Shown here: one piece after another, positions 21,255 through 61,800 of the stretch
How the letters are laid out: the number at the start of each line of letters is the position of its first letter
Position numbering within the stretch: the stretch's first letter is position 1
Source: Malania oleifera
Taxonomy: Eukaryota; Streptophyta; Magnoliopsida; Santalales; Ximeniaceae
Length of the DNA: 64,000 nt
Assembly: GCF_029873635.1 (NCBI RefSeq)
Contig: NC_080422.1
Location: 1,592,001-1,656,000 of the forward strand
Direction of reading: 5' to 3'
Position numbers and translations under genes: made by a program
Notes under the pieces: model-generated
Seen by the model: only the letters and a program-made list of their open reading frames with translations
What the model was told of the DNA's origin: nothing
Database searches by the model: none

Positions 21255-21275
21255 CTTCTTCAATCTTGATTTCAA

Positions 21276-24059: not shown

Positions 24060-24097
<38 letters not shown>

Positions 24098-24635
24098 TAG
24101 AAGTATTATGAGTAGAAGCCTAAAGTATAGAAATGTTAAGCAACAGATAAAAGATGATTTATATTACTGGTATTGTACTTTACATATTCAGTTATACATG
24201 ATTATATAGTAATAGATTTTCACAGTATTGTAACTTATTTGCCACACACTAGCAATAACATATTTTGTTTTATTGAGCGTTGGCTCATCCCAATTAATTT
24301 AACATTTTTCAGGTGATCCAAATAGGCGAGTAATTAGACTCGCAGGTAAAGGGGCTTTAGTACTGCCCTGTCAGTAGAGAGTGAGTATTTGTTTTGGAGT
24401 ATTTCTGTATAGCCCTGACCAGTCGTGGATATTTTGGGGAACAGTCAAATATGTATACATTGGGAAACATTTTAACACTCTGGTATTGTATATAATTACA
24501 TATGATTATGTTTATTTGATTTCTACTTCTCGCTGCTTAGGTTGATGATTGAGTTTAATCCAGTATGGTATCAGAGCATTTTAAATGTTATAGTATAAAA
24601 AAAGAAAAAAACTAGTTAAATAGCAGGTCGTTACA
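22666..24635 (+). mobile_element. Solo LTR, type I, TSD GTATG/GTATA
   Basis: About 1.97 kb, TGTAGTG...GTTACA, flanked by GTATG (22661-22665) and GTATA (24636-24640), which match at 4 of 5 positions. It is the same family as the chromovirus LTRs at 25253 and 32157: palindromes of the TTCGTCGACGAA kind (22745-22945), TATAAATA (about 22951), a CT-rich stretch, then conserved islands around 'gagcacggtaccgtagc', 'gggccacacaaccctat' and 'ttgagcgttggctcatccc'. The splice-like 'tttttcag/gtga' is at 24312. A primer-binding-site-like TGGTATCAGAG lies inside the LTR at 24566-24576. An (AT)n microsatellite occupies 24062-24093. Confidence 0.85.
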
Positions 24636-25252: not shown

Positions 25253-27084
25253 TATAGTGACCTGAAGACGCGTTCGTCGACGACATTGCATTTTGGATAT
25301 AATAACCCCAGAAATTTTCCAAGCACTCGTCGACGAACACAGGGGTTTCGTCGACGAGAAGATACCGAGAAAGGATTATTGGGATGTCTGAAATTCGTCG
25401 ACGAGGGGGCAGGTTCGTTGACGAACTTTCTATAGGACTTGTCAATGAGGTGATGTGGCTCGTCGACGAATCCCGCAGTATAAATAACCCTAAACTCAAT
25501 TAATCGCAGAAAAAACGACATCAAACCTTCTCCTTTCTCTCTCCTACGGCCTCCCCTCCATCTCTCGTCGATTTTGGCCTCGTCAGTTGCTGGATCGATG
25601 ATCTGAGACCATCACGACGCTCTTGGTGGAGTTATTTTCAAGTCTGCTGGGGCGGATCATCGGTGGGATTGAGTCGAGTTTCTCCCTAGAATCAGGGTAA
25701 GGTTTTTTATTCAATTTTTGACCTTCTGGTAGTTGTAAGAAATGATGTAGGCCAAGAAATATTGATATTTGGTTCTGAAAAATATGGTTTTCAGGGTGTG
25801 GAATAGGAAGCCTTGTGGGTGTAGGACCAGTATATGATATGGGCTTTTAGAAAGTTTGGTAAGGGAAACATGCTATGCTAGGAAAACCTAGTATGATTTC
25901 AGTATGAAGTTTATGTTTTACTAGATTATTATTCAGAGCAAAAATTTATGCAATTTATTATTGACATTAAAATATTTTAAATTATAGTGTGGCATGAGAG
26001 TATGAAAACATTATAGAAACATATTTTTACAGTATTTTCAGGAATATGTTTTACATAATATACAGACAGTGAAATGCGTTTACAGTATCTTTCAGAATAC
26101 CATGATGTTACAGTTTTACAGCACCATAACAGGTAGATTTACAGTTTATCTAAGAGAAATACAGTTGATATAGTTACAAAATATTAGAGCATCATGGTTT
26201 ATACAGTTATTACAGAATTATGGTAAAACAGTTAGTGTATATAAAAACGTATTACATGGTATTAGACCCTGATGGATTAGACAGTAGAGCACGGTATCGT
26301 AGTTACAAATATACAGATATTCAGTTTAGAGTGCAACCACTTAACTCAGATAGTAAGTGGTATGAGGTTGATTGTGCCTAGTTGTGGACAGGCTCCCCAT
26401 TAGATATGGGTTAAGGAGGGCCGATCTGATCGAGGAGTAGAGTGATTTACTCTGGTCGGCCAGTCAGGATAGATCCAGCCTTCGGGCCGCACAACCCTGT
26501 CATGAGAGGTTAAATCATGACATACAACCATCCAGGGAAATATTCTAAGATATTATGGTATTATCAGATTTTTTGAAATAGTATTATTATTATGAAAAGT
26601 AATTTCATACAGTTTGACATGTTAAATTATGTAGTTAAAGGTTTTATAATATGTTATGTAGTATCAGCATTTTCAGTTTTAGTTATTTGCACTACTCTTA
26701 ACTCGGATTAATTTTTACAGATCCACATCTAAGTAGCCACACACTAGTGATAGCATGTTTCGTCTTACTGAGTTTTGGCTCATCCCAGTGTTGAATTATT
26801 TTTTAGGTGAGCCAGTTGGGCGAGCGGAATAGGCTCGCAAATAGAGGAGCTATTAGTCTGCCCTTTTTAAGGGTGAGTCTTTTTGAGATTCAATTTTGTT
26901 AGTCCTGGTAGTAGTAAGAGTAGTTCTTAAGAGTACAATGAAATATGTAATATTTGTGGAATATTTAGACACTTTGGTATTGTATAATTATATATGGTTA
27001 TGTTTATTTGACTTTCGCTTCTCGCTGCTTAGGTTGATGGTTGGAAAAAAAAAAAAACCCCCAGTTAAATAGCATGTTGTTACA
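25253..27084 (+). repeat. Chromovirus 5' LTR (type I)
   Basis: Contains about seven palindromes of the TCGTCGACGA kind between 25264 and 25470, a TATA box at 25479-25485, and a CT-rich start. A conserved splice-like donor (GGGTAAGG) is at 25697, an acceptor (TTTTTTAG) at 26806 and a second donor (GGGTGAGT) near 26870. It ends GTTACA. Confidence 0.88.
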
Positions 27085-28530
27085 ATTTTGGTATCAGAGT
27101 CTAGGTTGCTAGGTTCTGTAGACTTTAGAGTGCAGTGGAAGCAATACCAGAGTATAGGAAAGGATTTGAGATTGGTTATAGTATCTGGGTATAAGATTTA
27201 CCGTGGTGGTTTCTGTGTTTTTCTTAGGGTGACAATTTCAGGAAAACCATAGTAAACTATTATCGGGTCATGTGTCTAGGTGACAGAACTGGTTATCAAA
27301 TTAAGATCATAGAAGATAGCTAATTTTGAATAGGTATAGGGTAGGTTTGTGTAGGAGATAAAGTTCTTAAGTGTGTTTCTTATTTTTAGAAAAATTCTAG
27401 AAAGCAGCGGCATGAATGTTGGGGGAGATAGTCCAAGATTTTCCAGTATGGGAGGTGCCGATACGGATGCTGTTCTGCACAGCGTCACCCAACAGGTGAT
27501 GGTTGAAATGACTAAGAGTTTTGGGGAGCGTTGCTGTTCGATCAAGCAGTTTACGCGGATGAAGCCCCCATCCTTTGTTGGAGGAGATGACCCGATTGTA
27601 GCTGAGAATTGGGTTGTAGCTGAGAATTGTGTCCAAGATATCGAAGAGACGTTGACTGTGCTTCCTTGTACAGATGAACAGAAAGTGGTATTTGCAGCAT
27701 TTAAACTGATAGGGGAGGTGAAACGCTAGTGGAGAGCAGTGCGATTGATAGAGGAGCAGAGGCCGGTTTCAATGCCAGTGACTTGAGATCGATTCAAGAA
27801 GCTATTCTTCGAGCGATATTTTTTTTTTGTCGTTCGGAGCACGAAGGCAGCAGAGTTTCTGCATCTAGTACAGGGGCAGATGACTGTATCTCAGTATACA
27901 GTTCAGTTTATCGAGTTGTCACATTTTGCTCCATATCTAGTACCTGATGAAGAGAAAAAGGTCAGAAAGTTTGAAGAGGGATTGTGGCAGAATTTGTTTG
28001 AGTAGGTGATTGGTTTCAGAGTTCAGACATTTACGGAGATTATAGACGAAGCTGCAATCATTAAAAGTGGTATACATAGGGGTATAGAGGCTCAGAATCA
28101 GAGGAAGAGGCTTGCGCCTCAGGATTTTCAGGCTGGCTCCAGTAGGGGTCCATGGAAAGGAGGCCGTGATAGAGGAGATCAAAGGCAGACGACAGGACCC
28201 CGTGAGAATTAGGGCACGTTGTTTTTTCAGGTATGTCAGACGTGTGGGAGACGCCACTTGGGAGAGTGCTTGGCTGGGAGAGGTGTATGTTACCATTGTG
28301 GGAGACCCGACTATATGGCATGTGCATGCTTAGGACCGCAGGACCAAGTTCCAGCTCCCAAGCCCTATCGGAGAGGATATCAGGCAGCTCGTGGAGGATA
28401 TCAGGTGCCTCGTGGAGGCCAGCAAAGGAATGTAGCCTCAACGTGAGTTTACGCTCTTACGCTGGGTGATGCTGAGGCTGCTGCGGATGTGGTGACAGGT
28501 ACATTTACTGTTTTATCATATCCAGTCATT
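27085..28530 (+). pseudogene. Chromovirus leader and gag remnant
   Basis: The primer-binding site at 27089-27099 is followed by an untranslated leader to about 27410. The gag remnant contains the capsid-type stretch 'FTRMKPPSF' near 27550 and a zinc-knuckle-like 'CYHCGRPDYM' near 28290 with nearby basic and proline-rich sequence. Broken. Confidence 0.75.
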
Positions 28531-30340
28531 GTTATTTTTGAATCAGGTGCTAATCATTCATTCATCTCTGCATCTTATGTTAAATTATTTGAGAGTGAGA
28601 CCAAGTCATTAGATATAGAACGGTCAGTAGCTACACTATCAGGATCAGTAATCAGATGTTAGAGGGTACTTAGGGGCTATCTAATAGAAATTCAGGGGAA
28701 AGTGTTACCAGTTGATTTGATTGTATTTGATATGTGTGGGTTTGATAAAATACTGGGTATGGAATGGTTGGCTGCCAATCACGCCAGCATTGATTGTCGT
28801 CGAAAAGAGGTAATTTTTAGACCCCCTAGTACGTAGGAATTCATATCCGTTGGTTCACAGGTACGTGCTCCAACATAGTTGGTGTCAGTTGTGCAGGCGA
28901 GCAGATTACTCCTAGATGGAGGTCAGGGGTTTATAACGTTTGTGAAAGAAGTATCTGAAAATGAATTGAAGATTGACAACACTCTAGTAGTACGATAATT
29001 TCAAGATGTTTTTTCAGAGGAATTACCTGGGTTGCCTCCTGTGTGTGAAGTGGATTTTCCTATAGATTTACCTTCAGGGACCGCGCTGATTTCTAAGGTT
29101 TCTTACCATATGGCTTTAGCCAAATTGGAAAATTTAAAGGAACAGTTGCAAGGCTTGCTGGACAAGGGGTTTATACGACCAAGTGTATCGTCGTGGGGAG
29201 ATCCAGTGTTGTTCGTAAAGAAGAAAGATAGGTTTATAAGGATGTGTATCGATTACAAAGAAATCAATAAGGTTACTATTAAGAATAAATATCCTCTACC
29301 CCGTATAGATGATTTGTTTGATCAGCTTCAGGGTACACGGGTATATTCGAAGATCGACCTTAGATCCGAGTATCATCAAGTAAGAGTAAAAGCAGAGGAT
29401 GTCGCGAAGATAGCTTTCAGGACCAGGTATGGGCACTACGAGTTCCTCGTTATGCCTTTTGGTCTGACGAATGCCCCAGCCGTGTTCATGGACTTGATGA
29501 ATAGAGTTTTCCACTAGTATTTAGATCAGTTTGTAGTAGTTTTCATTGATGATATACTGGTGTACTCGAGGAGTTTTGAGGATCATAAGGTGCATTTGAG
29601 GCAATTACTGCAAACGCTCAGGGAAAAAAAGCTCTATGCCAATTTTAGCAATTGTGAGTTCTGGCTTGAGAAAGTTGCATTTTTAGGCCACGTGATCTCA
29701 GGAGATGGTATATCAGTGGATCCCAGCAAGATCGATGTGGTGGTAAGTTGGGCTAGGCCGAGGAATGTGTAGGAAGTTAGGAGTTTCTTAGGACTGATAG
29801 GTTATTACCATTGTTTTGTTGAGGGGTTTTCGGCTTTATCAAGACCACTCATGTGGTTGACTAGGAAAAATACCAGATTTGCGTAGGATGAAGAATGTGA
29901 GCAGAGTTTCCAGGAATTAAAGCAGCGGCTCGTCACTACACCAGTACTGACGATTCCATCGGGAGGTGATGATTATGTTATCTACAGCGTCACGTATTTG
30001 AAAGGGCTCGATTGTATACTGATGCAGCATGGTAGGGTGGTAACATATGCGTCCAGGCAGTTGAAAGAGTATGAAAAGAACTACCCTACTCACGATTTGA
30101 AGTTGGTTCCGGTTGTACATGCATTGAAGATCTGGAGGCATTACCTTTATGGTGAGAGGTGTGAGATATTTTCTGATCACAAGAGTCTAAAATATTTGTT
30201 CACACAAAAAAAAGTTGAACATGCGGCAGAGGAGGTGGTTGGAACTCATTAAGGATTACGACTGCACCATCAGTTACCGTCCAACTAAAGCAAATGTGGT
30301 GGCTGATGCTTTGAGCCATAAGTCATAGGATACAACGCAG
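28531..30340 (+). pseudogene. Chromovirus protease, reverse transcriptase and RNase H remnant
   Basis: A protease-like region at about 28540-28800 ('ANHSFIS', 'ILGMEWL') is followed by the reverse transcriptase from about 29030, recognised by '[19 protein letters not shown]', 'YSKIDLRS', '[12 protein letters not shown]' and the 'FIDDILVYS' core near 29550. RNase H follows at about 29940-30320 ('[18 protein letters not shown]', '[12 protein letters not shown]'). This is the standard Ty3/gypsy order. Broken. Confidence 0.85.
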
Positions 30341-31894
30341 TTAGTAGTAGCAATTCAGCACCCGATTCAAACGATTCAAATGGAATTGGAAAGACTCGGT
30401 GTGGAATTAGTGAAAGGTGATCCTCAGGTGCTTATTTCCAATTTAGTGTTACATCTTGCACTGTATGAGAGAATTAAAGCTGCTCAGAGAAATGATCCAT
30501 AGTCAGTGGAGATGCTTGCTAGAATACAGGATGGTCAGGGAGAGGAATTCAATATTGCCGATGATGGGCCCCTCAAATTTCGCACCAGATTGTGTGTGCC
30601 TACGAATGTCAGCATCAGAAGAACAATTCTAGAAGAGGCACACAGATCTCTATATACTATTCATCCTGACAGTACGAAAATGTATAGGGATCTACGAGAT
30701 TATTTCTGGTGGAGTGACATGAAGAGGGAAATAGCAGAATTTGTGTAGCAGTGCTTGACGTGCCAACAGGTTAAGGCTGAGCACCAGAGACTGGCTAGTC
30801 AGTTGCAGCCACTTTTCATTCCTGAGTGGTAGTGGGACAATGTATCCATGGATTTCATTACTGGGCTGCCGCCAGCGCCGCATGGTCAGAATGCCATTTG
30901 GGTAGTGGTTGACAGGTTGACGAAGACAGCGCACTTCCTGCCCATTAAAGTCAGCTACCCTATGAATAAGTTAGCAGAGTTTTATATATAAGAGATTGTT
31001 CGACCCCATGGAGTGCCGGTATCCATAGTCTCAGACTGTGACCCTCAATTTATATCACGGTTTTGGAAGAGTCTGCAGGAGTCTTTGGGGATTCAGTTAG
31101 CATTCAGCACTGCTTTTCACCCTCAAACCGATGGTCAGACTGAGAGGACAATCCATATATTAGAAGATATGCTTCGTGCCTGTGTGCCAGACTTTGGAGG
31201 TAGCTGGATTTAGTTTTTGCCGCTAGTTGAATTTTCTTATAATAACAGTTATTAGGCTAGCATCGGCATGACACCCTATGAGACATTATATGGTAGGAGA
31301 TGCCGATCTCCTCTTTTCTAGGATGAAGTAGGTGAAAGACGAATTTTGGGTCTAGAGATAATTCAGCAAGCGTGTGATAAAGTCCGACTTATTCAAGACA
31401 GGATCGATGTAGCGCAGAGTCAGCAGAAAAGCTAAGTAGATACTCGCCGCCGAAAACTAGAATTTGAAGTAGGTGATCATGTATTTCTGAGAATAACTCC
31501 ACTGAAGGGGATCTTGAAATTTGGGAAGAAGGGTAAGTTCAGCCCTAGGTTTATTGGATCATTTGAGATACATGAGAAGATTGGGTCAGTAGCCTATCGG
31601 TTAGCCTTACCGCCATATTTATTTCGAGTTCATGACGCATTTCATATTTCCATGTTAAGAAAATACGTCTCAGATCCTTCCCATATCATCAGTCATGTAG
31701 AACTGGAAGTCAGTGAGATTTTAACATATGAAGAAGCTCCAGTACAAATTTTAGATAGAAAAGAACAAGAATTGCGCAGTAAGAAGATACCATTAGTAAA
31801 AGTTCTATGGAAAAACCACGTGATTGAGGAAGCCTCATGGGAGCTTGAAGATGAAATCAGACGGAAAAACCCTCATTTGTTCGATGAATTATAG
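30341..31894 (+). pseudogene. Chromovirus integrase and chromodomain remnant
   Basis: The integrase zinc-binding part is near 30640-30780 ('CLTCQQVKAEH'). The catalytic core follows, with 'ISRFWKSLQESLG' and 'FHPQTDGQTERTI' near 31030-31150. The C-terminal stretch at 31514-31894 has 'KFSPRFIGSFEI', 'FHISMLRKYV' and a chromodomain-like end ('VKVLWKNHVIEEASWELE'). A C-terminal chromodomain defines plant chromoviruses and is thought to steer integration to marked chromatin. Broken. Confidence 0.82.
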
Positions 31895-32156: not shown

Positions 32157-32494
32157 TGTAACAACCCGAAGAATAATGTTATTTAAATGATAAAGAGGGA
32201 CAGAAATAGAAATAGGAACAGAAGGAAGTAGCAGACTTCGTCGACGACATTACATTTTGGATATAAAAACCCTATAAATTTTTTCCAAACACTTGTTGAC
32301 GAACACAGGGGTTTTGTCAACGAGAAGATACAGAGAAAGGATTATTGGGATATCTGAAATTCATCGACGAGGGGGTAGGTTCGTCTATGAACTTTCTATA
32401 GGACTCATCGACGAAGTGACGTGGCTCATCAAAGAATCCCGTAGTATAAATAGCCCTAAACTCAGTTAATCGCAGAAAAAACGACGGCAAACCT

Positions 32495-32525
<31 letters not shown>

Positions 32526-34059
32526 CTACGGCCTCCCCTCCATCTCTCTTCGATTTCGGCCTCGTCAGTTGCCGGATCGACGATCTGAGGCCACCACGAC
32601 GCTTCTGGTGGAATTCTCTTCAAGTCTGCTGGGACGGATCGTCGGTGGGATTGAGTTGAGTTTCTCCCTAGAATCAGGGTAAGGTCTTTTATTCAGTTTT
32701 TGACCTTCTGATAGTTATAAGAAATGATGTAGGTCAGGAAATATTGATATTTGGTTCTAAAAAATGTGGTTTTCAGGGTGTGGAATAGGAAGCCCTGTGG
32801 GTGTAGGACCAGTATACGATAGGGGTTTTTCGATAGTTTGGTAAGGGAAACCTGCTATGCTAGGAAAACCTTATATAATTTCAGTATAAAATTTATGTTT
32901 TACCAGATTATTATTTATAGCAAAAATTTATGCAATCTATTATTGACATTAAAATATTTTAAATTATGGTGTGACATGAGAGTATGAAAACAATATAGAA
33001 ACATGTTTTTACAGTATTTTCAAGAATATGTTTTACAGAATATACAGACGGTGAAATGCGTTTACAGTATCTTTCAGAATACCATGATTTTACAGTTTTA
33101 CAGCACCATAACAGGTAGATTTATAATTTATCTTAGAGAAATACAATTGATATAGTTATAGAATATTACAGCATCATGATTTATACAGTTATTACAGAAT
33201 CATGGTAAAACAGTTAGTGTATATAGAAACATATTATATGGTATCAGACCCTGATGGATCAGGCAGTAGAGCACGATACCGTAGCTACAGATATATAGAT
33301 ATTCAGTTCAGAGTGCAACCATTTAACTCAGATAGTAATTGATATGAGGTCTATCATGCCTAGTTGTGAACAGGCTCCCCATCAAATATGGGTTGAGGAG
33401 GGCTGATCTAACCGAGGAGTAGAGTGGTTTACCCTGGTCGGCTAGCCAAGATAGATCCAGCCTTTGGGCCGCACAATCCTGTCATGAGGGGTTAAATCAT
33501 GACATACAGTCATCTAGGGAAATATTCTCAGATATTATGGTATTATCAGATTTTTCAAAATAGTATTATTATTATGAAAAGTAATTTCATACAATTTGAC
33601 ATGTTAAATTATGTAGCTAAAGGTTTTATAATATGTTATATAGTATCAGCATTTTCAGTTTTAGTTATTAGTACTACTCTTAACTCGGATTAATTTTTAC
33701 AGATCCACATCTCAGCAGCCACACACTAGTGATAGCATGTTTCGTCTTACTGAACTTTGGCTTATCCCAGTGTTGAATTGTTTTTCAGGTGAGCCAGTTG
33801 GGTGAGCAGAGCAGGCTCGCAGATAGATGAGCTATTAGTCTGCCCTTTTTAGGGTGAGTCTTTTTGAGATTCAATTTTGTTAGTCCTGGTAGTAGTAAGA
33901 GTAGTTCTTAAGAGTACAGTGACATGTAATATTTGTGGAATATTTAGACACTCTGGTATTGCATAATTATATATGGTTATGTTTATTTGACTTCTGCTTC
34001 TCGCTGCTTAGGTTGATGATTAGGAAAAGAAATACCCAATTAAATAGCAAGTTGTTACA
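32157..34059 (+). repeat. Chromovirus 3' LTR (type I)
   Basis: Starts TGTAACAACC, ends GTTACA. It has the same architecture as the 5' LTR, with a palindrome ladder (32235-32440), TATAAATA (about 32451), a (CT)n run (32501-32524), a donor-like GGGTAAGG at 32679 and an acceptor-like TTTTTCAG at 33788. Confidence 0.88.
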
Positions 34060-37319: not shown

Positions 37320-37701
37320 TGTAGAGACCCGGGAAAATAAATTAATAAGAGAAAATGGGAAAAAATGGTTTTTGGCTAGGAAAGGAGAAAACTAGCGACA
37401 ATTTTATGGAGGGAACAGAAAACCGGCGAGGGTTATGGGAATTACCGTGGAATGGTAATAGGTAAATGGTAAAAAGGAAGCCAATTAATAGAAAACCAGC
37501 GACGATTTTCTGGAGGGAACAGAAAATTGGCGACTGTTTTGGAATTACCGTGGAGCGGTAATAGGCAAACGGTAAAAACTAGACCAGTGAAATAGAAAAC
37601 AGGCAACAATTTTCTGGGGGTCAAAGAAAATCGGTGACGGTTTTCTCTATAGTGGGAGCTATAAGGAAAATCGAGAGCATCATTTTATTTAATCAAACAA
37701 A

Positions 37702-37761
<60 letters not shown>

Positions 37762-38433
37762 TAAACTCAAAAAGCTCCCTTTTTCTCTCTTCGATTTCGG
37801 CCTCATTTTAGCCCGGATTGACAATCAGGAACCACCACAGGGTTCTTGGGAAGATTTTCTAAAACCTACGTGGAGCAGATTTTCAGTTTGAGGTTCTAGG
37901 GCACCATCCTAAAACTAGGGTAAGTGATGTATTTCAGGGTTTTAAAGCTAATTTGGAGTATACGAAACCTAAGAAATGTTAAATGAAAATTATTCTGGGA
38001 GTCATGTTGAATAATTTGGGGGTAAATGTGAATTGCAGGTTTTTGGGCTGCGAACGCCGAGGGGCGTAGAAATTGGGTGTTTTAGCAAAATCTCAGTAAG
38101 TCAGGTAAGAGGAATAAGTTATAACAATCAATTTTGAAAAATACTGATTAAGTTATTATGTGAAAACGGTATTATGATATTTTACCTGAAATTTATTTAT
38201 GATATAAATATCAGATGAAACTTGTGTGACATATGATTTATATTGAGATATATTTAAAACTGAGTTAAATTATTTAGCCTGAGAATATGAGATTATGAAA
38301 TGTGAATTGAGATATGAGATTTGAAATAGGGAAAAATAATGAAAGTGAAATGAACTGAAAATGTATATCTTCTGAGAAATAATGATTATGAGATATTGAA
38401 ATGTTTTATTGAGAACAGTGAATTACGTAAAAT

Positions 38434-38476
<43 letters not shown>

Positions 38477-41400
38477 ATATATATGTATGTATTTATGAGA
38501 TGAAGTGAGTATTGAACTAATGAAATACCATTGAAATGATGAAATGAGTTGTGAATACTGAATTGTGAAAGCTGAATTGAGAATATTGCAATGTTAATAC
38601 TGCAATGAAAATAATGAAATGTGAATACTGAAATGAGAATATGAGAATGTGAGTATTGTAATGTGAATACTACAATACAGATATTAAAATGTGGATATAA
38701 GAAATATGAATATGAGAAATATGGTTATGAAAAATGTGAATATGAGAAATGTGAATATTGCAACGTAAAATTTTGCAATATGAATATTGAAATGTGATTG
38801 ATGAAATGCCAACACCGCATAATGATTGCAGGTATGTAGTAATGATAACCCTGATGGATGGATATGGAAACCCTAATGATGGGTTGTGATTTTGAGGTTG
38901 CTAGCGGAGGCAGTGCAACCACGCGGGCTCGTGGAGCGTGTGGCGTGATAGTAGATTGAGCTATATAACAAAGTTGTTGTGCCCACTGAGTCCAGATCAG
39001 GGCTATAGGCCGGCTAGTCGTACAACAAACACGGGATATATGAGATGATATTTTGATTTAACCGGGTCGGCCAACCGCGGTTAGGTCTAGCCTTCGGACC
39101 GCACAACCCTATTCATGGGGGGAAGTATGACGTGGAGAAAAATCCTCAAGGCAGTCATGAGTTACAGACACGGATGTATCGGTTACCAAGGATACTCATG
39201 AGCTAGATGTGAAATGAAAAAAAAATGAAAATGAAATGAAAATGGAAATGAAAATAGAAATGAGGAATGAAATAGTGTGAGTTAATATTATAAATAATGA
39301 AGTGAAGTAAAACACTCTGCCTGAGGGCTTACTGAATAAGGTGAATGCCTTGATAAGTATCAGTTATAGTCGAACCCGAGTTAATCGGGAAAGAACGCAA
39401 ATGATATCAAGGCAGAGGGAAGCTACTTGTATGGACGGGTAAGCTTCCCTATTCTTAGGAACTTCACTGGAAGACAGGGATTGCATGTAAACGAGTTGAA
39501 AATGGATATGATGCTTGTAAAAGCTTGTATTTTATATTTATATAAATATGATTATGGAAATTGTAACGACCTGAAAAATAACGGTATTTAAATAATAAAG
39601 AGATAGGGAAATGGAAACAGAAATAGAAGTCTGAAATTCGTCGACGAGGGATGAAGTTCGTCGATGAAATTATTAAAGGACTCGTCGACGAGGTGATGTG
39701 TCTTGTCGACAAATTCAGCTCTATAAATAGTGAAAACCCGAATTTTTGATGAAATTTTAGTGCAAGAAACCCTCTATTTCTCTCTCTACGTCCCTCCCTT
39801 CTTCTCTTTTTGATCTCGGCCCCGTTTCACGCCGGATCGACGATTTGAAGTCACCATGACGCTCCTAGCGAAGTTTTCTGCAAGTCTACTAGAGCTGATC
39901 GTTGGTGGAATTAGTTTGGATTTCGTCCCAATTTCAGGGTAAGACATTTTATTCAGTATTTGTCTTTCGCTTAGTTATAAGAAATACAATACACGAAGAA
40001 ATACCGATGTTTTGTTTTGGGGGATTTGATTTTCAGGATGTTGAGTGGGGAACCTTGCGGGTATAGGGCTAGAGTACAGTAGGGACTTTTCAGATATAAG
40101 GTAAGGAAAATATGCTATACTAGGAATTTTTATAATGTTAACAGAGATTTTACACATGTATATACTAGCTTTTTACCCAGTTTTATAGAATATGAGTTTT
40201 AAATGCTTATGTGGCCTTAGTAGATAATTATTTGATGAAGAACTTATACAGTTTCTCATACTATACAAAATACATAGATATAGATAGTATATTACAATTT
40301 TATTCAAATCAGTATGTTATAATTTTATATAGATCAGTATATTACAGATTTTCGCCCAGAACAGTATATTGCAAGTTTTACTCAGATCAGTATATTATAA
40401 CTTTATGCAGAACAGTATATACAGTATTTATAGTTTACCATATTTCCTATTACCATAATATACAAAGTATACAGATAGAGTATATAGATAGAGTAAACAG
40501 ACAAATATACAGAGAGAGCATCAAGATGCTACTAATACAGAATATAGAGATTACAGAGTTTATAGTACAGAAAGATAGCGTTGTGGTAATTTTGGAAACA
40601 TGATGAAAACAGTAAAAGAGTATATATGTATATATATAGTATTAGATCCCTGAGGAATGATTATAGATAGATACAAATAAAGAATAAAGAGCACAATACC
40701 GTTGTTAGATACAGATAGAGTGCAACCACATATCTCAGATAGTGTGTGGGTAACGTCAACCGTACTCAGAGAGTATGCAGCTCCCTAGTTCGTTGGGTGG
40801 AGGGGGTCGGTTTGACGAGGTAGCAGCCAGTCTCGTGCCTAGGAGAGTATGCAGTTTGGCTGGACTGAAGTAGTGTAGAGTATATTGACTTATCTAGAGG
40901 GCCGACTAGATTAAGTCCCGTCTACGGGCCGCACAACCATGTCATGAGGGGTCAAATCATGACATACAGAGTTCCAGGGATAAAATATAGTTATGTATAT
41001 GTATACAGTTTTACAGTATATGATGAGTATAGTATGATATTATCACTATGAAAAGTAGAAAATATAGATGATACAATTATATTTTAAATTGCGAAAAGAA
41101 AGATATGCTTTACAGATTTACCATTGTATTATAGTTTAGTTGTTATTTAAACAATATTCCTAACTTAGTTGTCACATACTAGTAATAGCATATTTCCACT
41201 TATTGAGCGTCGACTCATCCCATGACTTTAACATTTTTCAGGTGAGCCAGCTGGGCGAGCAAACCAGGCTCACGGATAGAGAGTACATTGGTTACCCTAG
41301 TTTAGAGGTAAGTTTGTGTAGGATTTTGTTTTTTGGGACAAATATTTTGGAGAGAGATGTATTATATAATTATGGTTTAGAAATATAGATTCCTGGTATT

Positions 41401-42045
41401 GTATGATGTGTATAGATGTATGAATTATGTTTCCGCTGTATAGGTATGATTTATATTCAGATTTACTCTGGTGCCTCGAGGCTCGAATTCCATAGCAGGG
41501 GGTATCAGAACAGTTTATATATATATAATGATGTTAATTTTGAGGTTGTCACAGAAATGATATATATTTTCTCAGAAGATATTATTACTGAAATGAGTAT
41601 ATATGTTATGATATTATGAAACTCATACTGCCATACACCGTAGATAATTTATTTCATCTTACTGAAATGTGTCTCACCCAATCATTTAAATATTTCAGGA
41701 AACTGAGATAAGTTTGGTGATAGAACTCCGAGATAGAGGGGAACAGATACCCTGGGTAGACAGGGTGAGTATTTTGAGGTAGGGAGGTTTGATTCTCCTA
41801 GAGTTTTTGTGGTAGACTTGTATTTATGGATGGTTAGTACTCTGGTATGTGTATTCGCTGTGGTTTGTATATATATATGAATTGACTTCCGTTGTTAGAG
41901 TTGTGTATATGAGTATGATTGTATAGCCGGTACCCACTTTCGGGTCGGGTTATGTATTGTGGTATCAAAGGTTGACGTGGCCGATATGTGATATATATGT
42001 TAATTATATGGAAAAAAAATGGTATGAAAAATCAGGGCGTCACAC
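37320..42045 (+). mobile_element. Solo LTR, type II, TSD CAACA, with a nested LTR
   Basis: Inserted in the LINE. The duplication CAACA is exact (37315-37319 and 42046-42050). Own length about 2.73 kb after removing the nested LTR at 39562-41553. Starts TGTAGAGACC, ends CGTCACA. The upstream part carries a ladder of six imperfect 'gaaaaccggcgacggtttt' palindromes (about 37385-37645) and a (CT)n run (37709-37757). A donor-like AGGGTAAG sits at 37920. Long runs of 'atgtgaatactg' repeats (about 38500-38800) and an (AT)n tract (38438-38468) fill the middle. TGGTATCAAAG, like a tRNA-Met primer site, lies inside the LTR at 41960-41970. Confidence 0.88.
39562..41553 (+). mobile_element. Solo LTR, type I, nested, TSD GAAAT
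   Basis: 1.99 kb inside the preceding LTR, with an exact duplication GAAAT (39557-39561 and 41554-41558). Starts TGTAACGACC, ends GTCACA. It carries the CGTCGACGA palindromes (39637-39715), TATAAATA (about 39722), donor GGGTAAG at 39939, acceptor TTTTTCAG at 41241 and GGTATCAGAA at 41501-41510. It is the youngest layer of a four-deep nest. Confidence 0.88.
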
Positions 42046-44699: not shown

Positions 44700-47040
44700 T
44701 GTAACGACCTACTACTTATTTTAGCATTTTTTTTCTTATCTGTAAATCATAATATCTTCTGTTTGAAATACTACTAATAACATCTCAGGCCCAAAGGAAC
44801 ACTAGGGAAGACTCTGTACGTCATACAAAACTAGGCAGCGGTAAACAAAAACTGGGAACTGCTATATACAATATAATACGAGAAAGCTATAGAACTATAA
44901 AATAGATTTACAATACAAAATACCTAGTGACGCCACTATAATCTGAAAACTATTCAAAAACACTGTTATCTCAAAAATACCTAACCTTCCCACAAGGGCA
45001 ACTCAAGTCAACCTCTACCCACGAGCCTGATCTGCTCGCCTAACTGGATCTCCTGAAAAATGATAAGACACTAGGATGAGACAACGCTCAGTAAGTGGAA
45101 ATATGCTATTACTAGTGTATGGCGACTGAGTTACATATTTAAAATACTGAAATAAGACTGAAATCTGATAAAACTGATAAAAGTACAGAATATATCTATC
45201 ATGTAATCTTTAAAATATGACTGTGTATTTGAGTTTTGCTATCTGAAGGTACTGTTAGTATAATAATATAAATTGCTGATGTGTGATATATCTGTACATA
45301 GGAATTTCTTTTATACCTTAGGATCTGTATATCATGATATAACCCCTCATGATAGGGTTGTGAGGTCTGTAGGCTGGACTTATTCTGGTTGGCCTACCAG
45401 ACAAGTCAATATATATTTGTACATCTGCCAATCTAGCCCACTGCAATCTCTCTGGGTAATCTCCAAACTCTAGCATCGTCTAACCAACCACCTCAACCCA
45501 GCTCGCTAAGGAGATTACAATCTCTCCTGACTCGGCTAGACAGAATCCACATACTATCTGAGTTATGTGGTTGCACTCTATTCTATACTAGCAATGGTAC
45601 CGTGCTCTGCTGTATATTTATCTTTCTATAATTTCCATAGGGTTTTGTAACTGTGTAATATTGTATACATATATAAATATATAATAATCTTACTGCTTTT
45701 AATATGATTTCAAAAACAACCATAACATTATAGTTCTGAACTGTATTCATAATATCTGTCTGTATCATCTGTGATTTCTGTCTGTGCTATCTGTAACAAC
45801 TATATATAATATCTGTATATAATATTCGTATACAATATCTGTATATAATATTTGTATATAATATCTGTGTATAATATCTGTGTATAATATCTATAATCTC
45901 TGTATAATTTGATTATAACATCTTGATGCTAAAACTGAATAATCTGTCTATAATATCTATAAAATCTGTCTGAGTGTTATGGTGTAGAAATCATGTTATT
46001 CTAAGAAATACTATAAGTCTCATTCATTACAAATGATATGAAATATCTGAATATTTGTAATACTGAAAAATCTACATACTATACAGTAATAAACTCATGC
46101 CACACATTTGAGTAAACCTATTCTTATGCTTAATTTCTATAATTTTGCTATAAAGATAATATTCATAATTCCCTAGGAAAAATAATCTAATCTGCATGCT
46201 TGTATATACATATTCATAATATTCTGTATACATAATAAAAATTGCTAGCATAACATATTTTCCTTACCTTAAATCTGAAAAGTCCATATAAAATTCTGAC
46301 TCTATACCCGCAGGGTTCCTAACTCAACAGCCTAAAAATAATATTCCCCAAAACAAAACATCAGTATTTCCTTACCTATAACATTTCTTACAACTACAAG
46401 GAAGATATAATCTGAATAAAATGTCTTACCCTGAATTTAGAATGAATTTCAAATCAACTTTCCCCACGATCTGCTTCGACAGACTTGTAAAGAACTTCGT
46501 CAAGAGGGACGTGGTGGCTTCAGATCTTCAATTTGGCGAGAAATGGGGCTAGGATTGAAGAGAGAAGGGGAGGGGGTCGTAGGGGAGAGAGAGAGAGAGA
46601 GATAGAGAGAGAGAGAAAGAGAGAGAAGGGTTTGGCACTGAAGATTTTATTAAGAATCTGAGTTTCAGCTATTTATAGGGCTGGATTCGTTAACGAGACC
46701 GTCACTAGTCGTGAGGTCCTTTAATATTTCATCGACAACCCCTACCGCATTCTCGACAAATCGCATGGGCCAAAAACCCTCTCTCGGTATCTTCTCGTCA
46801 ACGAGGCGTGGCTTCGTCGACAAAGCCTACTTATGCGCTCATCGACGAACTCCCTGTGTTCATCAAGGAGGTCCTGTGTAAAAATCTTCGAGTTATTATA
46901 TTCAAAGTGTAATGTCGTCGAAGAACTCGAATCGACGAACTAGAAGCGTTCGTCGACGAAACCTACTACCTCATTTTGTTTCTATTTCCATTTCCCTCTC
47001 TTTTTATTATTTAAATATCATTATTCTTCAGGTTGTTACA
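44700..47040 (-). mobile_element. Solo LTR, type I, minus strand, TSD TGTGA
   Basis: 2.34 kb inside the copia element, with an exact duplication TGTGA (44695-44699 and 47041-47045). On the minus strand it starts TGTAACAACC and ends CGTTACA. The palindrome ladder is at 46685-46965, CTATAAATAG at about 46670-46680, a GA-rich (CT on minus) run at 46587-46625, donor GGGTAAG at 46429 and acceptor TTTTTCAGG near 45053. The middle contains about ten tandem 'ataatatctgtat' units (45790-45905). Confidence 0.88.
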
Positions 47041-52873: not shown

Positions 52874-55800
52874 TGTAGAGACCTGGAAAATTTAATTAAT
52901 AAGAAAAATACAGAAAAGAAAGAAATTTGGTTTGGAGAAGACCAAACCGTTGGCGGTTTCATGGAGCTTATAAAAACCGTCGACGGTTTGGTGGGAGGTC
53001 AGAAAACCATTGACGGTTTTGTCTGATAGTGTTTAATAAAGGAGATCCTGCAGCCTTATTTGTTTAAACAAAAATAAATTTCTCTCTCTCTCTCTAAAGA
53101 AACCTACGAAACCCTCTCCCTTCTCTATTTGATTTCTCTCCGATTTCAGTTTGATTTGATGATCAGACATCACCACGGGGTCCTAGGAGCGACCCTGAGC
53201 AAATTAGTCGGAGCAGATTTTCGATTTAGGCATTCTAGGCACCACTCCAAAGTTAAGATAAAAGAGATGAATTATCAATTGTTTTACAGTTTAACTGCTT
53301 ATTTGGAGTATATTGGCCTTGGGAAAATGTGAATGTAATCATTATTTTAGGATTGAATTGATTGAACTGAGGAAAAATGATATCCAGGTTTTTGAGCTCC
53401 GAACGCGCGGGGGTGGGTTTAGGATCTTCACAGGAATTTTCTCAATAAGCAGGTAAGGGGAATAAATTGTAACGGATATTTTTGAGAAATTTACTGGTTG
53501 ATTAAAGTATGTGAAATTGAGAATATGGATATTTTCCCTGTGATTATTATATTATGATTTATCAGACTAAATTTGTGTGGCATGAGAAATATGAAATAAC
53601 TACTTTATACTGAGAATGTGATGAAATGAGATATATACATATATATAGAAATGATGTTACGAGATATACGAATACGTTTTTTTTTATGCATATGCTAATA
53701 TGAGATAAATTGACATGTTTTATACGAATATGAAGATACGAGAACACAATAGGGTTTTAGTAGAATGTAATTATGGATATACAATTTATTTTTTCAGAGA
53801 AATGATGAAATATGATTTACATATATGTTTTATATTAAATATGATAAAATGTGAGATACATATATGTTTTACCTGAAATTGATTTTATAACGTTGGGGGG
53901 TTTTTTTTTTTTTACGCACAAAGATGGTTTATACAGAAATGTGAATATGAGAGACAAGACCAATATGCGATAAAGTGAATACAGATATGATGAAAATGAT
54001 ACAAAAATGATGAGAATAATACTGATATGATGAGATATACAGACGTAATGAAATGTAAATACAGAAATGTGGAAATGAGAACCCTAATGGACCATGGTAT
54101 ACAGAGCATGATACTGTTGCCAGTATTTGGGATTAATGCAACCACACATCTGGTATAGAGTGTGGCGAGGCAGTCAATTGGGTCTGAGAAGGGTTGTGTT
54201 ACCCCCTAGAGTCCGGACCAGGATTGGGTAGGCCAATCGTACTACATACGCGTTCCCCGTTTTGATCTAAGCGGGAAAGGCTAACTGCAGTTAGGTCCAG
54301 CCTTTAGACCGTACAACCCGGTCATGTGAGGTGAATACATGATAATGTGATGTGAATATCTTCAGGATGATTACTCATTACAAATGTGATAATTGTATAT
54401 CTCAGATATGATGAACAGTCATGAGTTATAGACGTGTAGCGCTATATGCTGGTGGACACTAGTGGGCTAGAATATGGATATAGGGAAATGAAATGAGAAT
54501 GAACAGCCGTGAGTTACAGACGTATTATGCTATATGCCGGAGGATACTCACGAGCTAGAATATGAACATGAGAAATGATATGAAAACCTATGAGAATATT
54601 GGCTAGAATGTGATTATAAATATAAGAAATATAAGAGTACGTATATGACACAGAATGAATCGATATGTTATATGAATCTGAAAAGGCAAAGAGCATGAAT
54701 ATGGTATGAGATATGAAAGCTTATGTATATGATTATGAAAATAATATGAAAGTTTATGAAATTATGTTTATATGTATATAATTATGAGTACAAATCTGTA
54801 TGTATTTTCTAGTGGATATAATTATTTAAATGAATGTGTTATGATATAACCTAAATCTTGTTGCCACACACTATGAATAATTTATTCCATCTTACTAAGA
54901 GGTGTCTCACCCAGAATTTAAACAATTTAGAAACTAAGATAGAGTAGCAGAGAGAGCTCCAACGGAGAGGAGACCATAGTACCCTAGTACTCAGGGTAAG
55001 TGTTTTGAGCTGGGGATGTGTTTTGTATGACCCTCAGAGTATTTTGTGGATTTTTGAGATATATGTATATAGAGGTTATAGCACTCTGGTATTGTATTTT
55101 GAGATCCAAACACTTTATGTATTTCACTACATAGTTTGTGTGTATTGATGGTCAGATATGTAGTGACCCGAAGAATAATAGTATTTTAATAATAAAGAGA
55201 GAGAGAGAGAGAGAGAGAGAAAATAGAAACAGAAACAGAAGGAAGCCGGCGCTCGTCGATGACATTGCATTTTGGAGATAATATTAAATAATCATAAATT
55301 TAGGAAATTGCCAAGTTTCGTTGACGAACACAGGGTTTCGTCGACGAAGACCTTAAGAATTTCGTCGACGAACACAGGGCTTCGTCGACAAGAAAATACC
55401 GAGAGAGGTTCTGGGGCGGTCTGAATTTCGTCAACGAATACAGGGCTTCGTCGACGAATTTATTCAAGGATTCGTCAACGAAGTGACGGGCCTCGTTGAC
55501 GAATTTAGCAGTATATAAGGAGGAAAATTGGGATATTTCTCATTTCTCTCGCCGTTCTCTCTCTCCTCTCTCTCTCTCCTACGACTCTCTCTCCCTTCTC
55601 TCTTCCTAGTCGCCGGATCGACGCTCTTGGCGGAATTCTTTACAAGACTGCCGAAGCGGATCGTCAGGAAAACGAAGTTGGATTTCATCCCAAATTCAAG
55701 GTAAGACCTTTTAGCCTCTTTTTAGTCTCATGGCAGTTATAGGAAATAATGTAGGTAGAAAAATACTGATGTTTAGTTCTGGAAAATATCGTTTTCAAGG

Positions 55801-57277
55801 TATTGTATAGGAGGTCCTGTGGGTATCGGGCTAGAGTACAGTAGAGGCTTTTTAAAGTTAAGGTAAGGGAAATATCCTATGTTAGGAAATTTCTAAATAT
55901 TATACAATGTATTTATTTATGAAAATTATGTATTAAAGTATAGCGTGACTTGTGAATATGTATGTAGTACGGGGATATGTTTTATGAATTGTAGTTTCAT
56001 GATTTTTATGAATTTCAGTACCATGATTTTACGAATTTAAGTACTATGATTATGTGAACTTCAGTACAATGATTTTATGGATTTTAGTACCATGATTATA
56101 CGAATCTCAGTACCATGATTACACGAATTCTAGTATTACGAATATGCAGTTCCATGTTATGATTATTCAGATTTCAGTACGTTATGCAGCATCAAGGTTA
56201 TTATGATTACTTCAGAATCATGGTAAATCAGATAGATATGTATAGAAATATATTATACGATATCAGACCCTGTTGGACTTGTAACTACAGAGCACGGTAC
56301 CGTTGCTACAGATATTATGTTACTTTATGAGTGTAACCACCTATTCAGATAATACGTGGTAAGGTCGACCACCTAAGCCCTTAAAGAGGTTAGACTCCCC
56401 ATCCAGATATGGGTTGAGGTGGGCAAGTCGACTGACGGAGTTCGGTGATTTATTCTTGGTTGTCCAGCCAGGGTAAATCCAGCCTACGGGCCACACAACC
56501 TTGTCTTGAGGGGCATGTCATGACACAGATAACCATAGGGAACAGTTTTAGTTACTATTACATATGTACAGATTTACAGAAACAGGGATCCTACTTATGT
56601 ACACTAGAAGTATTTTGAAATTATAACCTACAATACTGTTATGTTAAGCAACATGGAAAGGGGATGCATTTTCTTACTTATACTGTACTTAACATATCTA
56701 GTTATACATGTTTATATGAAATCAGATTTTGCGTAATATTGTTAGCTCATTTGTCACACACTAGTAATATCATATTTCTTCTTACTGAGTGTTGGCTCAT
56801 CCTAGTGTTGAAACATTTTTCAGGTGATTCAGGTAGGCGAACAGACCAGGCTCGCAGATAGAGGGACGTCTGTAGTGCCCTATCAGCGAAGTGAGTATAT
56901 TTTGAGAGAATTTTTTGTATACTCTAGCTAGTTGAGGGTATTTTTAGGGAAGAGATATATGTGTATATTTTGGGATACATGTAGTACTCTGGTATTGAGT
57001 GGTATTGGTTTTGTATTGTATATGATGGTTTATGATTATGTTTGTACGATTTCTGCTTCCTGCTGCTTAGGTTAATACTGTGGTATCAGAGTATGTTAAT
57101 TGTTACAATGTAAAAAAAAAAAAAAAAATCAATTAATTAAGCAAGTCGTTACAAGATATCTGGTATCCCATTTCGGGCTCGGCTATATTGATACATGGTA
57201 TCAGAGATATGTGGTAAATGATGGAATGTCATTATTTATTATTGTATAAAAAAATGGTAGAAAATCGGGTCGTCATA
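52874..57277 (+). mobile_element. Solo LTR, type II, TSD GTATA, with a nested LTR
   Basis: Exact duplication GTATA (52869-52873 and 57278-57282). Own length about 2.40 kb without the nested LTR. Starts TGTAGAGACC, ends CGTCATA. Three 'aaaccgtcgacggttt' type palindromes lie at about 52945-53025. The middle has AT-rich 'gaaatgtgaatatgag' repeats. An island 'gcctttagaccgtacaaccc' is near 54300. A primer-site-like TGGTATCAGAG is at 57196-57206. Confidence 0.87.
55159..57153 (+). mobile_element. Solo LTR, type I, nested, TSD AGATA
   Basis: 2.00 kb, with exact duplication AGATA (55154-55158 and 57154-57158). Starts TGTAGTGACC, ends CGTTACA. Best palindrome ladder in the window: nine units of the TTCGTCGACGAA type between 55250 and 55505. 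TATA-like 'agtatataag' is at about 55511, donor AAGGTAAG at 55701, acceptor TTTTTCAG at 56823 and a primer-site-like TGGTATCAGAG at 57081-57091. Confidence 0.88.
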
Positions 57278-57923: not shown

Positions 57924-58206
57924 ATCCCACAACCTAAAGAGAGGAGGAGGAAAGGAAATGAATTAATCAATAAAATGAGTTGCGGGATCTATATATTCAA
58001 CCTACGCCTAGACGAAACCGTCCACGGTTTTGATTTTTTAACCCCTATGTTTTTTCACCATTTTACCGTTACTGGGCCGCGGTAACACGAAACCGTCGAC
58101 GATTTTCTGGCCTCCCACCAAATCGTCAATGGTTTGGTCTTCATCAAACTAAATTTCCCTCTTTTCCTTATTTATATTTATTCTTATTATTTTCTGGATC
58201 ACTACA

Positions 58207-58342: not shown

Positions 58343-58775
58343 TGTAGAGATCGAGAAATTTAAATAATAAGAAAATAGGAAAAGGAGGAAATTCGGTTTG
58401 ATGAAGACCAAACTGTCGATGGTTTGGAGAGGGGTGCAGAAAACGGTTGACGGTTTTGTGAGTGGTGCAGAAAATAGTTAATGATTTTCTCAGCAGTGCT
58501 AAAATTAAAGAAGAACCGCGAGCCATTTTTGTTAAATCAAAACAAAACTCTCTCTCTCTCTCTCTAAACCCTACGGCCCTAACACCCCTTCTCTCTTCTT
58601 TTTCGCTCCGTCTTAGCCCGTTTCAATAATGAGGAACCACCACGATGATCTAAGGGTGATTCTCTACAAGTTAACATGAGCGGATTGTTGAGTTGGGGTT
58701 TCGAGGCACCACTCCAAAACCAAGATAAGTAAGGTATTTTAGGGTTTAATTGTAGAGACCTAGAAAATTTATTCA

Positions 58776-58819
<44 letters not shown>

Positions 58820-61800
58820 GGAAAGAGAAAAGAAAAAAAATTTAAAAGGGATATCAACAAGGGTTCGTCGATGAACCTAGGGTCTTCATCGACAAATGTC
58901 CCTATAGGACTCGTCAACGAAGTACATGTGTCTCGTCGATGAGAAGATACCGAGAGTCTAGGAATTTCAGAAAATTTCAAGTTCATTAACGAACCAACCT
59001 CATCGTCAATGAAGTGCCTTCGTGGACTTGTTAACGAATCACTTGAACTCGTTGACGAACGCCGGCCTATAAATAGGTAAACCCTCATTTTCAGCGAGTA
59101 TTTTCTCTTTCCTCTTGCTCTCTCTCTACCCTACAGTTCTCTCTCTCTCTCTCTCTTCGATTTCGGCTTCATTATAGAACGAATTAATGATTAGGAACCG
59201 CCACAAGGTTCGTCAGGAGATTCTCTACAACTTAGTCAAAGTAGAATTTCAATTTGGAGTTCCAAATCATCATCCCAAAATCAGGGTAAGTGAAGTATTT
59301 TAAGGTTTAATGGGTAATTTGGAGTATATGGGGCCTAGGAAGAGTTAAATGAGAATTATTCTGGGAGATGAGTTGATTAATCTGGAAAAAAAATGTGACT
59401 TTTAGGGTTTTGAGTTTTGGATGTTGCGGGCATAGGATTTGGGCTTTTAACGGACTCATCCGTAAGTCAAGTAAGGGGAATAAATTATAACAATATTTTA
59501 GAAATTATGAGTTGAATAAATATGTGAAAATGGTGATATAATATTTTAACTGTATATATTATGATATGAATAACAAACGAAACTGTGGCATATGAGTTAT
59601 ACTGAGAATATGTTTGAAACTGGGTTGTGTGACCTGCATGGTGAATTATGAGAATATGAAGTAAACACATATTGAAATGTTTTAGTGCAGAAAAGAATGT
59701 AAGAGAAACCCAATGATGTTTTGGGATTTGAAAGTTATGAAATGATGAATTATGTTTTATTGATAAATGTTGAAATATGCGAAATGTAAATTATACTATT
59801 ATGAGAATGGAATATATATTGAAAAATGAGAAAGAAACAGAAAATGATGAGAATATTGAAATGTGATATATACCATTATGAGATGAGATATGAATACTAA
59901 AATGTGAATATGAAAATATGAATATTGCAATGTGAAATGTGAATAGTGGAATATGAATATTGTAATGTGAATACTGCAATGTGAATGTTGAAATGTGAAT
60001 ACTGGAAATGTGAATATTGCAATGAGAATACTACAATGTGAATAATGAAATGTGATATTGAGTACCCTGATGGACGATTGTTGATAATGAGCATGGTACC
60101 GATGCTAGCAGATGATAGGTGCAACCACACGATCTTGTGGAGAGTGTGGTGTGACAATTGAATGAGCCAATGAGAAGGGTAGTTTTGCCCCTGGAGTCCG
60201 GACCAAGGTTGAGCAGGCCATTTGTACTATAGATGGGTATATGAATTGTTTATTTTGATCTAACTGGATAGGCCAACCGCGGTTTAGATCTAGCCTTCTA
60301 ACCGCACAACCTCGACCATGGGGGGAACCATGGCGTGGAGAATATCCTTAAGGCATCCATGAGTTACAGACGCACATGTATTGGTTACTGAAGACACTCA
60401 TGAGTTAGATGATGAAATGGTAATGAGAAAAGAAAGAGTGTGAGTTTAATAACATAAATAATTAGGGAGAAGTAAAACTCTCCGCCTGAGAGCTTACTGA
60501 GTAAGGTGAGTGTCGTATCAATTGTAGTCATACCTGAGTTAATAGGGTAGGGTCACAAACGATATCAAAATAGAAGGAAGCTACATGTATGGGTTTGAAA
60601 TCTCCCTTATCCTCGGGAACTTTTGCTGATAAATATGGGTTGCACGTGAATGAATTGAAAAATAGAATTAAAACTTATAAAAGCTTATGTTTTATATCTA
60701 TATGAATATGAGTATAATTAGTATATTTTTCTAAGATGGTATTATGACTTAAATGAGTATTTTATGATATAACGAAACTCATACTGTCACACACTGTAAA
60801 TAATTTATTCCGTCTTACTGAAATGTGTCTCATCCAAATATTTAAATAATTCAAGGAACTGTGACAAAGCAGGAGATAGAACTCCGAAATAGAGAGGAGC
60901 TAGAATCCCTGATAGACAAGGTGAGTGTTTTGAGTTAGGGATGTATGATTCCCCTAGAGTTTTTGGTTGATTTTTGAGGATGTGTTAGATATGTATATAT
61001 ATATATATGTATATGGATGTTTAGAATTCTAATTATTTGTATTCTGGATGGTATGTATATATGGACTTCCGCCGTTAGGTATGTATTTATATGATGGATT
61101 GATTACTCAGTATCCCACTTCGGGTCGGATTATGTTTAAATGGTATCAGAGTTTTTGACGTGGACGATGTTTGATTAATGGTTATTTACGGGAGATTAAA
61201 AAAAAATGGTATGAAAATCTGGACGTCACATTAATTGTTAATTTGAAGTATATGGGGGCCTAAGAAATGCTACATAAGAAATATTCTAGGGGTTGAGTTG
61301 ATTAATGTGGGGAAAATGTAATTTCAGGGTTTTGAACTTCAAACGCCGTGGGGCGTGGATTTAGGGTTGTCAGTAGGCTTCTCAGTAAGGCAAGTAAGGG
61401 GATAGATTAAGTCAGGTATTTTCAATAAATTAATCATTAAATATACAATATTTGATTCGGAAAGGTATATATGAATTAGTATAGTTTTTTAGAATACTAA
61501 TGTTGAACTCAGGTAACTTTGAAAACAGATTTAATATTATTTTGTTAGCAAAATATGTTTTCCCAAACCAGATAATTTATTACAGAGTAGTACTCACTTG
61601 TGTGTGACATGAGTATAAATTTTATTGCAAATAATTGTATGTTAGAATATTTTATGAATTCACAGTACAAGCATGATTTGACGATAGTTTTTAAAAAAAC
61701 TCTAACAATACAGAAATTATAGTTTTAGTATATTAATGATATTCAATCGAAGCAGATGCCGTGATTATTCAGTCGGCACAAATGCCATAATTATTCAGCC

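Follow-up and report, generated by a model that had tools for sequence, protein, structure and literature searches.

Why do several long terminal repeats (LTRs) of Malania oleifera carry rows of short palindromes just upstream of the TATA box, and what might read them? We addressed this question in a window of 64 kb, meaning the whole stretch of DNA that was analysed (GCF_029873635.1, NC_080422.1, positions 1,592,001-1,656,000, forward strand), from which all copies described here were taken and within which positions are counted. Allowing up to two mismatches, the palindrome TTCGTCGACGAA occurs 37 times across the whole window, compared with 1.03 sites expected and a maximum of 6 in 100 shuffles; 22 sites remain at up to one mismatch and 6 are exact. 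Nearly all of them (35 of 37) fall inside the U3s of seven LTRs, which together amount to 2,000 bp, and the two beyond the U3s are at positions 61 and 32125. Individually, the U3s hold 3-8 sites against shuffle means of 0.02-0.08 and maxima of 1-2 (1,000 dinucleotide shuffles each), and all seven exceed their shuffles. The core of the site, CGTCGACG, ranks fifth by raw count among the 8-bp palindromes of the window and first by its ratio to base composition (17 observed, 0.20 expected), a ratio uncorrected for CpG content, unlike the TTCGTCGACGAA shuffle tests, which do correct for it. Ladder units were accepted at up to four mismatches with at least 5 of the 8 core bases, a few of the weakest being doubtful.

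All seven ladders of the original prediction are present, within about 10 bp of where it had placed them (Table 1), and its placement of the type I ladders in U3 upstream of the TATA box holds: every one of them is located between the LTR start (TGTARYGACC-like; TGTAGAGACC in G) and the TATA box. Other particulars required amendment. The ladder at 46685-46965 is carried by a minus-strand LTR, and the one at 58863-59063, described as type I, by an LTR whose body is not type I. Up to nine units per LTR had been described, where our unit criterion gives 4 to 10, and the spacing, given as roughly 20-35 bp, is instead mostly 19-25 bp with additional gaps of 45-50 and 52-65 bp. The earlier description did not include a second type of ladder, carried by another group of LTRs (H, J, K and L). 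Since LTRs B and C form the pair of a single element, the seven ladders represent six independent insertions.

Table 1. Positions of LTRs, ladders and associated features within the 64 kb window.
Feature	Positions	Strand	Remarks
LTR A, solo	22666..24635	+	imperfect TSD GTATG/GTATA (one mismatch); ladder 22746-22943
LTR B, 5' LTR of element with C	25253..27084	+	TSD CTTTG; ladder 25273-25470
gag, protease, RT, RNase H, integrase and weak chromodomain fragments	27787..31894	+	Pfam; between LTRs B and C
LTR C, 3' LTR of element with B	32157..34059	+	TSD CTTTG; ladder 32237-32436, decayed
LTR H, type II, solo, host of LTR D	37320..42044	+	TSD CAACA; AAACCGTCGACGGTTT-like ladder 37389-37643, centre altered
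LTR D, solo, nested in LTR H	39562..41553	+	TSD GAAAT; ladder 39637-39713, four units
LTR E, solo	44700..47040	-	TSD TCACA; ladder 46686-46960
LTR J, type II, solo, host of LTR F	52874..57277	+	TSD GTATA; units 52944, 52974 (perfect) and 53004 (span 52944-53019)
LTR F, solo, type I, nested in LTR J	55159..57153	+	TGTAGTGACC ... GTCGTTACA; AGATA TSD on both sides
Ladder F, nine TTCGTCGACGAA-like units	55252..55503	.	unit starts 260, 195, 175, 151, 131, 85, 65, 41 and 20 bp before TATA
TATA box of LTR F (TATATAAG)	55512..55519	+	
LTR L, start and U3 only, other end not located	57960..58206	-	three type II units within 58015-58135
LTR K, part preceding nested G	58343..58750	+	type II units 58410, 58441 and degenerate 58472 (span 58410-58487)
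LTR G, solo, chimera, nested in LTR K	58751..61230	+	TSD TTAAT; type I ladder 58864-59059, type II body
AARATACCRAGA copies	22832, 25359, 55393, 58944	+	
AARATACCRAGA copy	46793	-	

The coding region between LTRs B and C identifies the element that carries these two ladders as a Ty3/gypsy chromovirus. When all 21 stop-to-stop open reading frames of at least 70 aa in this interval were searched against Pfam as separate pieces, 8 matched Pfam families (reverse transcriptase in two pieces) and 13 matched none. The families found were Retrotrans_gag, RVP_2, RVT_1, RT_RNaseH, Integrase_H2C2 and SH3_Tf2-1, with Chromo (20.2 of 25.1 bits) and rve (20 of 32.6 bits) below the cut-off, and the sub-threshold chromodomain is on the same piece as the clear Tf2-1 SH3 domain. 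The resulting order, gag-PR-RT-RNaseH-INT-chromodomain (Chromo and rve being sub-threshold), is that of a chromovirus, and the assignment to Ty3/gypsy follows because protease, reverse transcriptase and RNase H precede the integrase, the SH3 domain and the chromodomain-like end; in Ty1/copia elements the integrase comes before the reverse transcriptase. We take the lineage to be Tekay/Del-like, and TGGTATCAGAG, a PBS-like sequence that directly follows LTR B, is presumably a Met-tRNA primer site. An env gene was not recognised by Pfam among the 21 reading frames, and since the only families present are those of gag, protease, reverse transcriptase, RNase H, integrase, SH3 and chromodomain, nothing points to a regulator encoded by the element itself. 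The two LTRs have diverged by a K2P distance of 0.10, which corresponds to about 4-7 million years if rates of 1.3e-8 or 7e-9 are assumed. A Ty1/copia reverse transcriptase fragment (RVT_2; 34381-35088, minus strand) lies just downstream of LTR C. Elsewhere in the window, a 336-aa open frame with glutaredoxin and GRXCR-type C-terminal domains in Pfam (20268-21278, minus strand) is likely a host gene, and a 251-aa open frame (9586-10341, plus strand) resembles by eye the C-terminal part of a NAC protein and has no Pfam match.

The units of the type I ladders recur at near-fixed distances from the TATA box. Measured to the unit start on the bare, unaligned sequences, with one TATA box per copy, units stand 20, 62-66 and 83-86 bp before the TATA box in all seven copies and 41 bp before it in five (A, C, D, F and G), B and E having no unit at this last position within the unit criterion. 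Further upstream, units start at 128-136 bp in six copies (all except D), at 147-158 bp in B, C, E, F and G, at 172-183 bp in E, F and G, and at 193-195 bp in E and F, with additional distal starts at 187 and 206 bp in A, 206 bp in B, 208 bp in C and 204 bp in G. A gap of 45-50 bp separates the units near -131 and -85 in the six copies that have both, while the gaps of 52-65 bp lie further upstream. Relative to F, the distal units are 2-4 bp nearer to the TATA box in E and 5-9 bp further out in G, and the distal part of the ladder is therefore less rigid than the proximal part. Spacings of 20-24 and 30-31 bp suggest two and three helical turns; phasing was not significant at 10.5 bp (Rayleigh p = 0.24, seven type I intervals) and we do not claim it, the values of p = 0.044 at 11.5 bp and p = 0.025 at 12 bp for the same intervals being post hoc.

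Judged from comparisons among the copies, conservation of the motif exceeds what shared ancestry of the LTRs would provide, so that the motif survives the test by which the original prediction could have failed. Over the last 90 bp before the TATA box, copies A, B, D and F can be compared without gaps across four units (C, the sister LTR of B, was left out, as were E and G, which have indels). Here all 16 columns that hold T2, T5, A8 and A11 are invariant, compared with 16 of 42 spacer columns (Fisher p = 1.1e-5), as are 14 of the 24 CpG columns and 5 of the 8 outer positions. A MAFFT alignment of six copies (without C), itself partly guided by the motif, gives a pairwise identity of 0.773 in the motif and 0.558 in the spacers; among 253 circular mask shifts the largest difference was 0.195, short of the observed 0.216. 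Across the 52 units of the seven copies, T2, T5, A8 and A11 have changed in 2 of 208 cells, a figure biased downward because the units were chosen by similarity, whereas the gap-free column test involves no such selection.

At their CpG positions the same 52 units show 57 changes, 48 of them CpG transitions; the founder copies therefore probably had near-perfect sites. Between B and C, positions in CpG context differ in 16 of 48 cases in the U3 and other positions in 22 of 186, the corresponding values for the body being 16 of 72 and 115 of 1519. The CpG observed/expected ratio is 1.26-2.10 in the seven U3s and 0.40-0.71 in the LTR bodies; these U3s have a GC content of 36-48%, below the usual cut-offs for CpG islands. 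Outer positions 1 and 12 are variable, and symmetric covariation between them, which we looked for in the 52 units, was not seen (G12 is present in 4 of the 18 units that have C1 and in 10 of the remaining 34). The sites therefore look conserved in the source copies despite faster decay after insertion.

In the second type of ladder, carried by LTRs H, J, K and L, AAACCGTCGACGGTTT-like units recur every 30-31 bp, and two of these LTRs (H and L) also have wider gaps of 73-75 bp. Type I and type II units have the 8-bp core CGTCGACG in common and differ in their flanks (TT/AA in type I, AAAC/GTTT in type II), and most units of H have GGCGAC or AGCGAC in place of the central GTCGAC. A TATA box was not recognised downstream of the type II ladders of H, J and K; in L, a TATATAG-like match lies 35 bp after the start of the last unit. 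The ladder of H is multiplied by a 104-bp tandem repeat (37386-37644, 2.5 copies), and perfect CT and GA runs of 26 and 37 units occur downstream of ladders H and L (37707-37758 and 57847-57920, respectively).

By its sequence matches, LTR G is a chimera in which a type I U3 sits on a type II body, with the switch near the TATA box. At the threshold used, its first 300 bp match only type I (the first 40 bp also match J at a looser one), positions 301-360 match both groups, and beyond about 360, up to the LTR end, the best matches are to type II, at 291-670 bits compared with at most 95. The spacer word AARATACCRAGA, which directly follows the unit near -131 in A, B, E, F and G, may be a second binding site. 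That G has both the units and this word in common with type I LTRs argues for exchange of a U3 module, or else for an ancestral type I U3 having been replaced in H, J, K and L.

We consider it likely, on the strength of these sequence patterns, that the ladders are U3 enhancer arrays read by a sequence-specific, probably dimeric, host protein. The non-CpG bases stayed nearly unchanged while their surroundings drifted, as would be anticipated if the ladder is, as it probably is, a docking array for a host control protein. Under such a mechanism, the LTRs of a Ty3/gypsy chromovirus would present 4 to 10 palindromic putative binding sites at near-fixed distances upstream of the TATA box; a host DNA-binding protein, either a homodimer or one reading the core CGTCGACG from both strands, would occupy several of these sites together, and the occupied sites would drive transcription of the retroelement. 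After insertion and silencing, CpG methylation and deamination would erode the sites. The symmetry of the unit suggests a dimer or a protein able to read either strand.

As to which protein this might be, we know of no factor for CGTCGACG, nor of any NAC, IDD, WRKY or TGA-bZIP site that is a good fit to the intact unit; a resemblance to W-box cores (GTTGAC) is seen in some decayed units. A heat-shock element was considered and rejected, as TTC and GAA are 6 bp apart in the unit, unlike the canonical spacing of 2 bp. We name AP2/ERF proteins of the DREB/CBF type as no more than one candidate, because GTCGAC fits the barley DRE/CRT-type AP2/ERF element (G/a)(C/t)CGAC quoted in the available text of PMC3602543; being palindromic, GTCGAC could be read on both strands. 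GTCGAC itself is absent from PMC3602543, and the conserved unit, unlike the DRE/CRT element, is longer, with CGTCGACG flanked by TT/AA or AAAC/GTTT. In open-access literature on candidate factors, no motif match was present among the matches listed, the one in a paper on WRKY50 being, in the part seen, a cloning primer, and the text of PMC10670769 contains no CGAC.

Several other explanations have to be set against an array of protein-binding sites. The type I U3s are mutually homologous, TRF reports for F a tandem array with a period of 20 bp (3.5 copies at 72% matches), and the spacer word ACAGGG recurs in ladders, as might be expected if a short repeat in an ancestral U3 had been duplicated in tandem and then inherited without function. 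Such a neutral remnant is very improbable in our estimation: the spacers have diverged and the non-CpG site bases have not, the gap-free column test speaks strongly against it, and the same core recurs within different flanks in the second LTR group. The original prediction had offered either a dimeric host factor or a CpG-dense methylation target. With three CpGs per unit, the ladder might indeed be a patch read for its CpG density, by the methylation machinery or by methyl-CpG proteins, and both the CpG excess of the U3s over the LTR bodies and the more frequent B-C differences at CpG contexts in the U3 fit this reading. We nonetheless find it quite unlikely, as CpG density needs no invariant T or A, no fixed palindrome and no near-fixed distances to the TATA box. 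Conservation is highest at the T and A lying between and beside the CpGs, which favours a site read by its sequence over mere CpG density, and it is the symmetry of the unit that points to a dimer.

A role at the RNA level deserves separate consideration, since U3 also forms the 3' end of the RNA, where adjacent palindromes could pair into long hairpins that are diced to small RNAs and recruit silencing. There is precedent in the hairpin and small-RNA proposal for maize Sirevirus palindromes, as described in the available part of PMC10760457. Ladder F is predicted to fold far better than its shuffles (z = -5.4; the adjoining downstream stretch gives z = +1.5), and ladder parts of 111-150 nt from A, B, E, H and J reach z of -3.0 to -5.0, whereas the parts folded from C and G are not clearly better than shuffles (z of -0.5 and -1.2). 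The fold is equally expected if the sites bind a protein, because any row of DNA palindromes folds likewise. Pairing alone would moreover permit T-A to become C-G, yet T2, T5, A8 and A11 hardly changed in the 52 units, and in none of the 16 gap-free columns. Hairpins would explain a cost to the element and not why the sites are kept, and we regard them as an unlikely reason for the ladders. Since most ladders fold strongly, the array of putative protein-binding sites may come at some cost through silencing as well, in line with the argument made for Sireviruses.

The original prediction knew of no named element with this signature, which needs qualification: the repeated-motif (RM) boxes of Sireviruses are similar in architecture, even if superfamily and core differ. 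In the text available from PMC2829016 (Bousios et al. 2010), palindromic RMs are described from 13 Sireviruses (the core being CGG-CCG in 12), where they form CpG islands close upstream of the TATA box, with at least 8 copies per element (LTR and linker combined in some). The ladders resemble these boxes in that many palindromic CpG-bearing motifs are clustered in the LTR a little way upstream of a conserved TATA box, CpG is high, and a core is common to otherwise differing families. Like the RMs, too, they are numerous and lie in the upper half of the LTR: the LTRs measure 1.8-2.5 kb, and their 4-10 units fall within the initial 160-363 bp. The Vitis RM, CGGTCGACCG in that text, even contains GTCGAC, as do ladder units here. 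Strong predicted RNA folding, in 6 of 8 ladders tested here, is a further likeness to the palindrome clusters in the LTR cis region of maize Sireviruses (PMC10760457 and PMC5311732, in the parts available).

The differences are as clear. Sireviruses are Ty1/copia elements, whereas the host element here is a Ty3/gypsy chromovirus, and the core is CGTCGACG rather than the CGG-CCG given in the text seen of PMC2829016; type II units hold CCG...CGG, the reverse of that order. Unlike the RMs as described there, the units stand at near-fixed distances from the TATA box and form no cluster outside the LTRs (a single match, 32125). The same text calls the RMs Sirevirus-specific and absent from the classic Ty1/copia elements compared, and Ty3/gypsy is not treated in the portion seen. 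According to the part seen of PMC10760457, maize Ty3/RLG elements are generally without an obvious peak of such structures; the palindromes at insertion sites treated in PMC6911290, likewise seen in part, are a separate matter. As superfamily and core differ in spite of the similar layout, the type I and type II ladders are not members of the Sirevirus RM family, and by analogy they seem to work alike.

Searches for the motif elsewhere gave little. By titles and the beginnings of abstracts, no report of palindrome arrays in chromovirus LTRs was found in the open-access literature, and the motif words returned nothing on plant LTRs among the matches listed. For palindromes in LTRs, the directly relevant paper among those returned was the Sirevirus study (PMC2829016), accompanied by two papers that cite it. 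The two-unit type I pattern had 0 matches in viral contigs, and the type II 16-mer occurred at one place in each of 5 viral contigs. A looser two-unit pattern matched at least 120 stretches in genome contigs, of which the 80 listed are bacterial or archaeal with one place each, and these we take as chance. A broader proposal, which we advance tentatively and with considerable doubt, is that Ty3/gypsy chromoviruses and Ty1/copia Sireviruses converged on, or exchanged, a GTCGAC-like palindrome enhancer answering to one host factor family, the cassette being swapped between LTR groups with its core kept and its flanks changed.

These observations extend the palindrome-array promoter, known from Sireviruses, to a Ty3/gypsy chromovirus, a class of element abundant in many plant genomes, and the chimeric LTR G suggests that such arrays can travel as modules. 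The invariant bases give a precise, testable motif, with YTCGTCGACGAR and AAACCGTCGACGGTTT as the forms of the ladder unit for queries of transcription-factor motif libraries. Because CpG positions decay fast and the non-CpG bases appear frozen in the source copies, intact ladders could mark young or competent copies. If a single host factor lies behind the arrays, retrotransposon activity would be linked to a specific signal.
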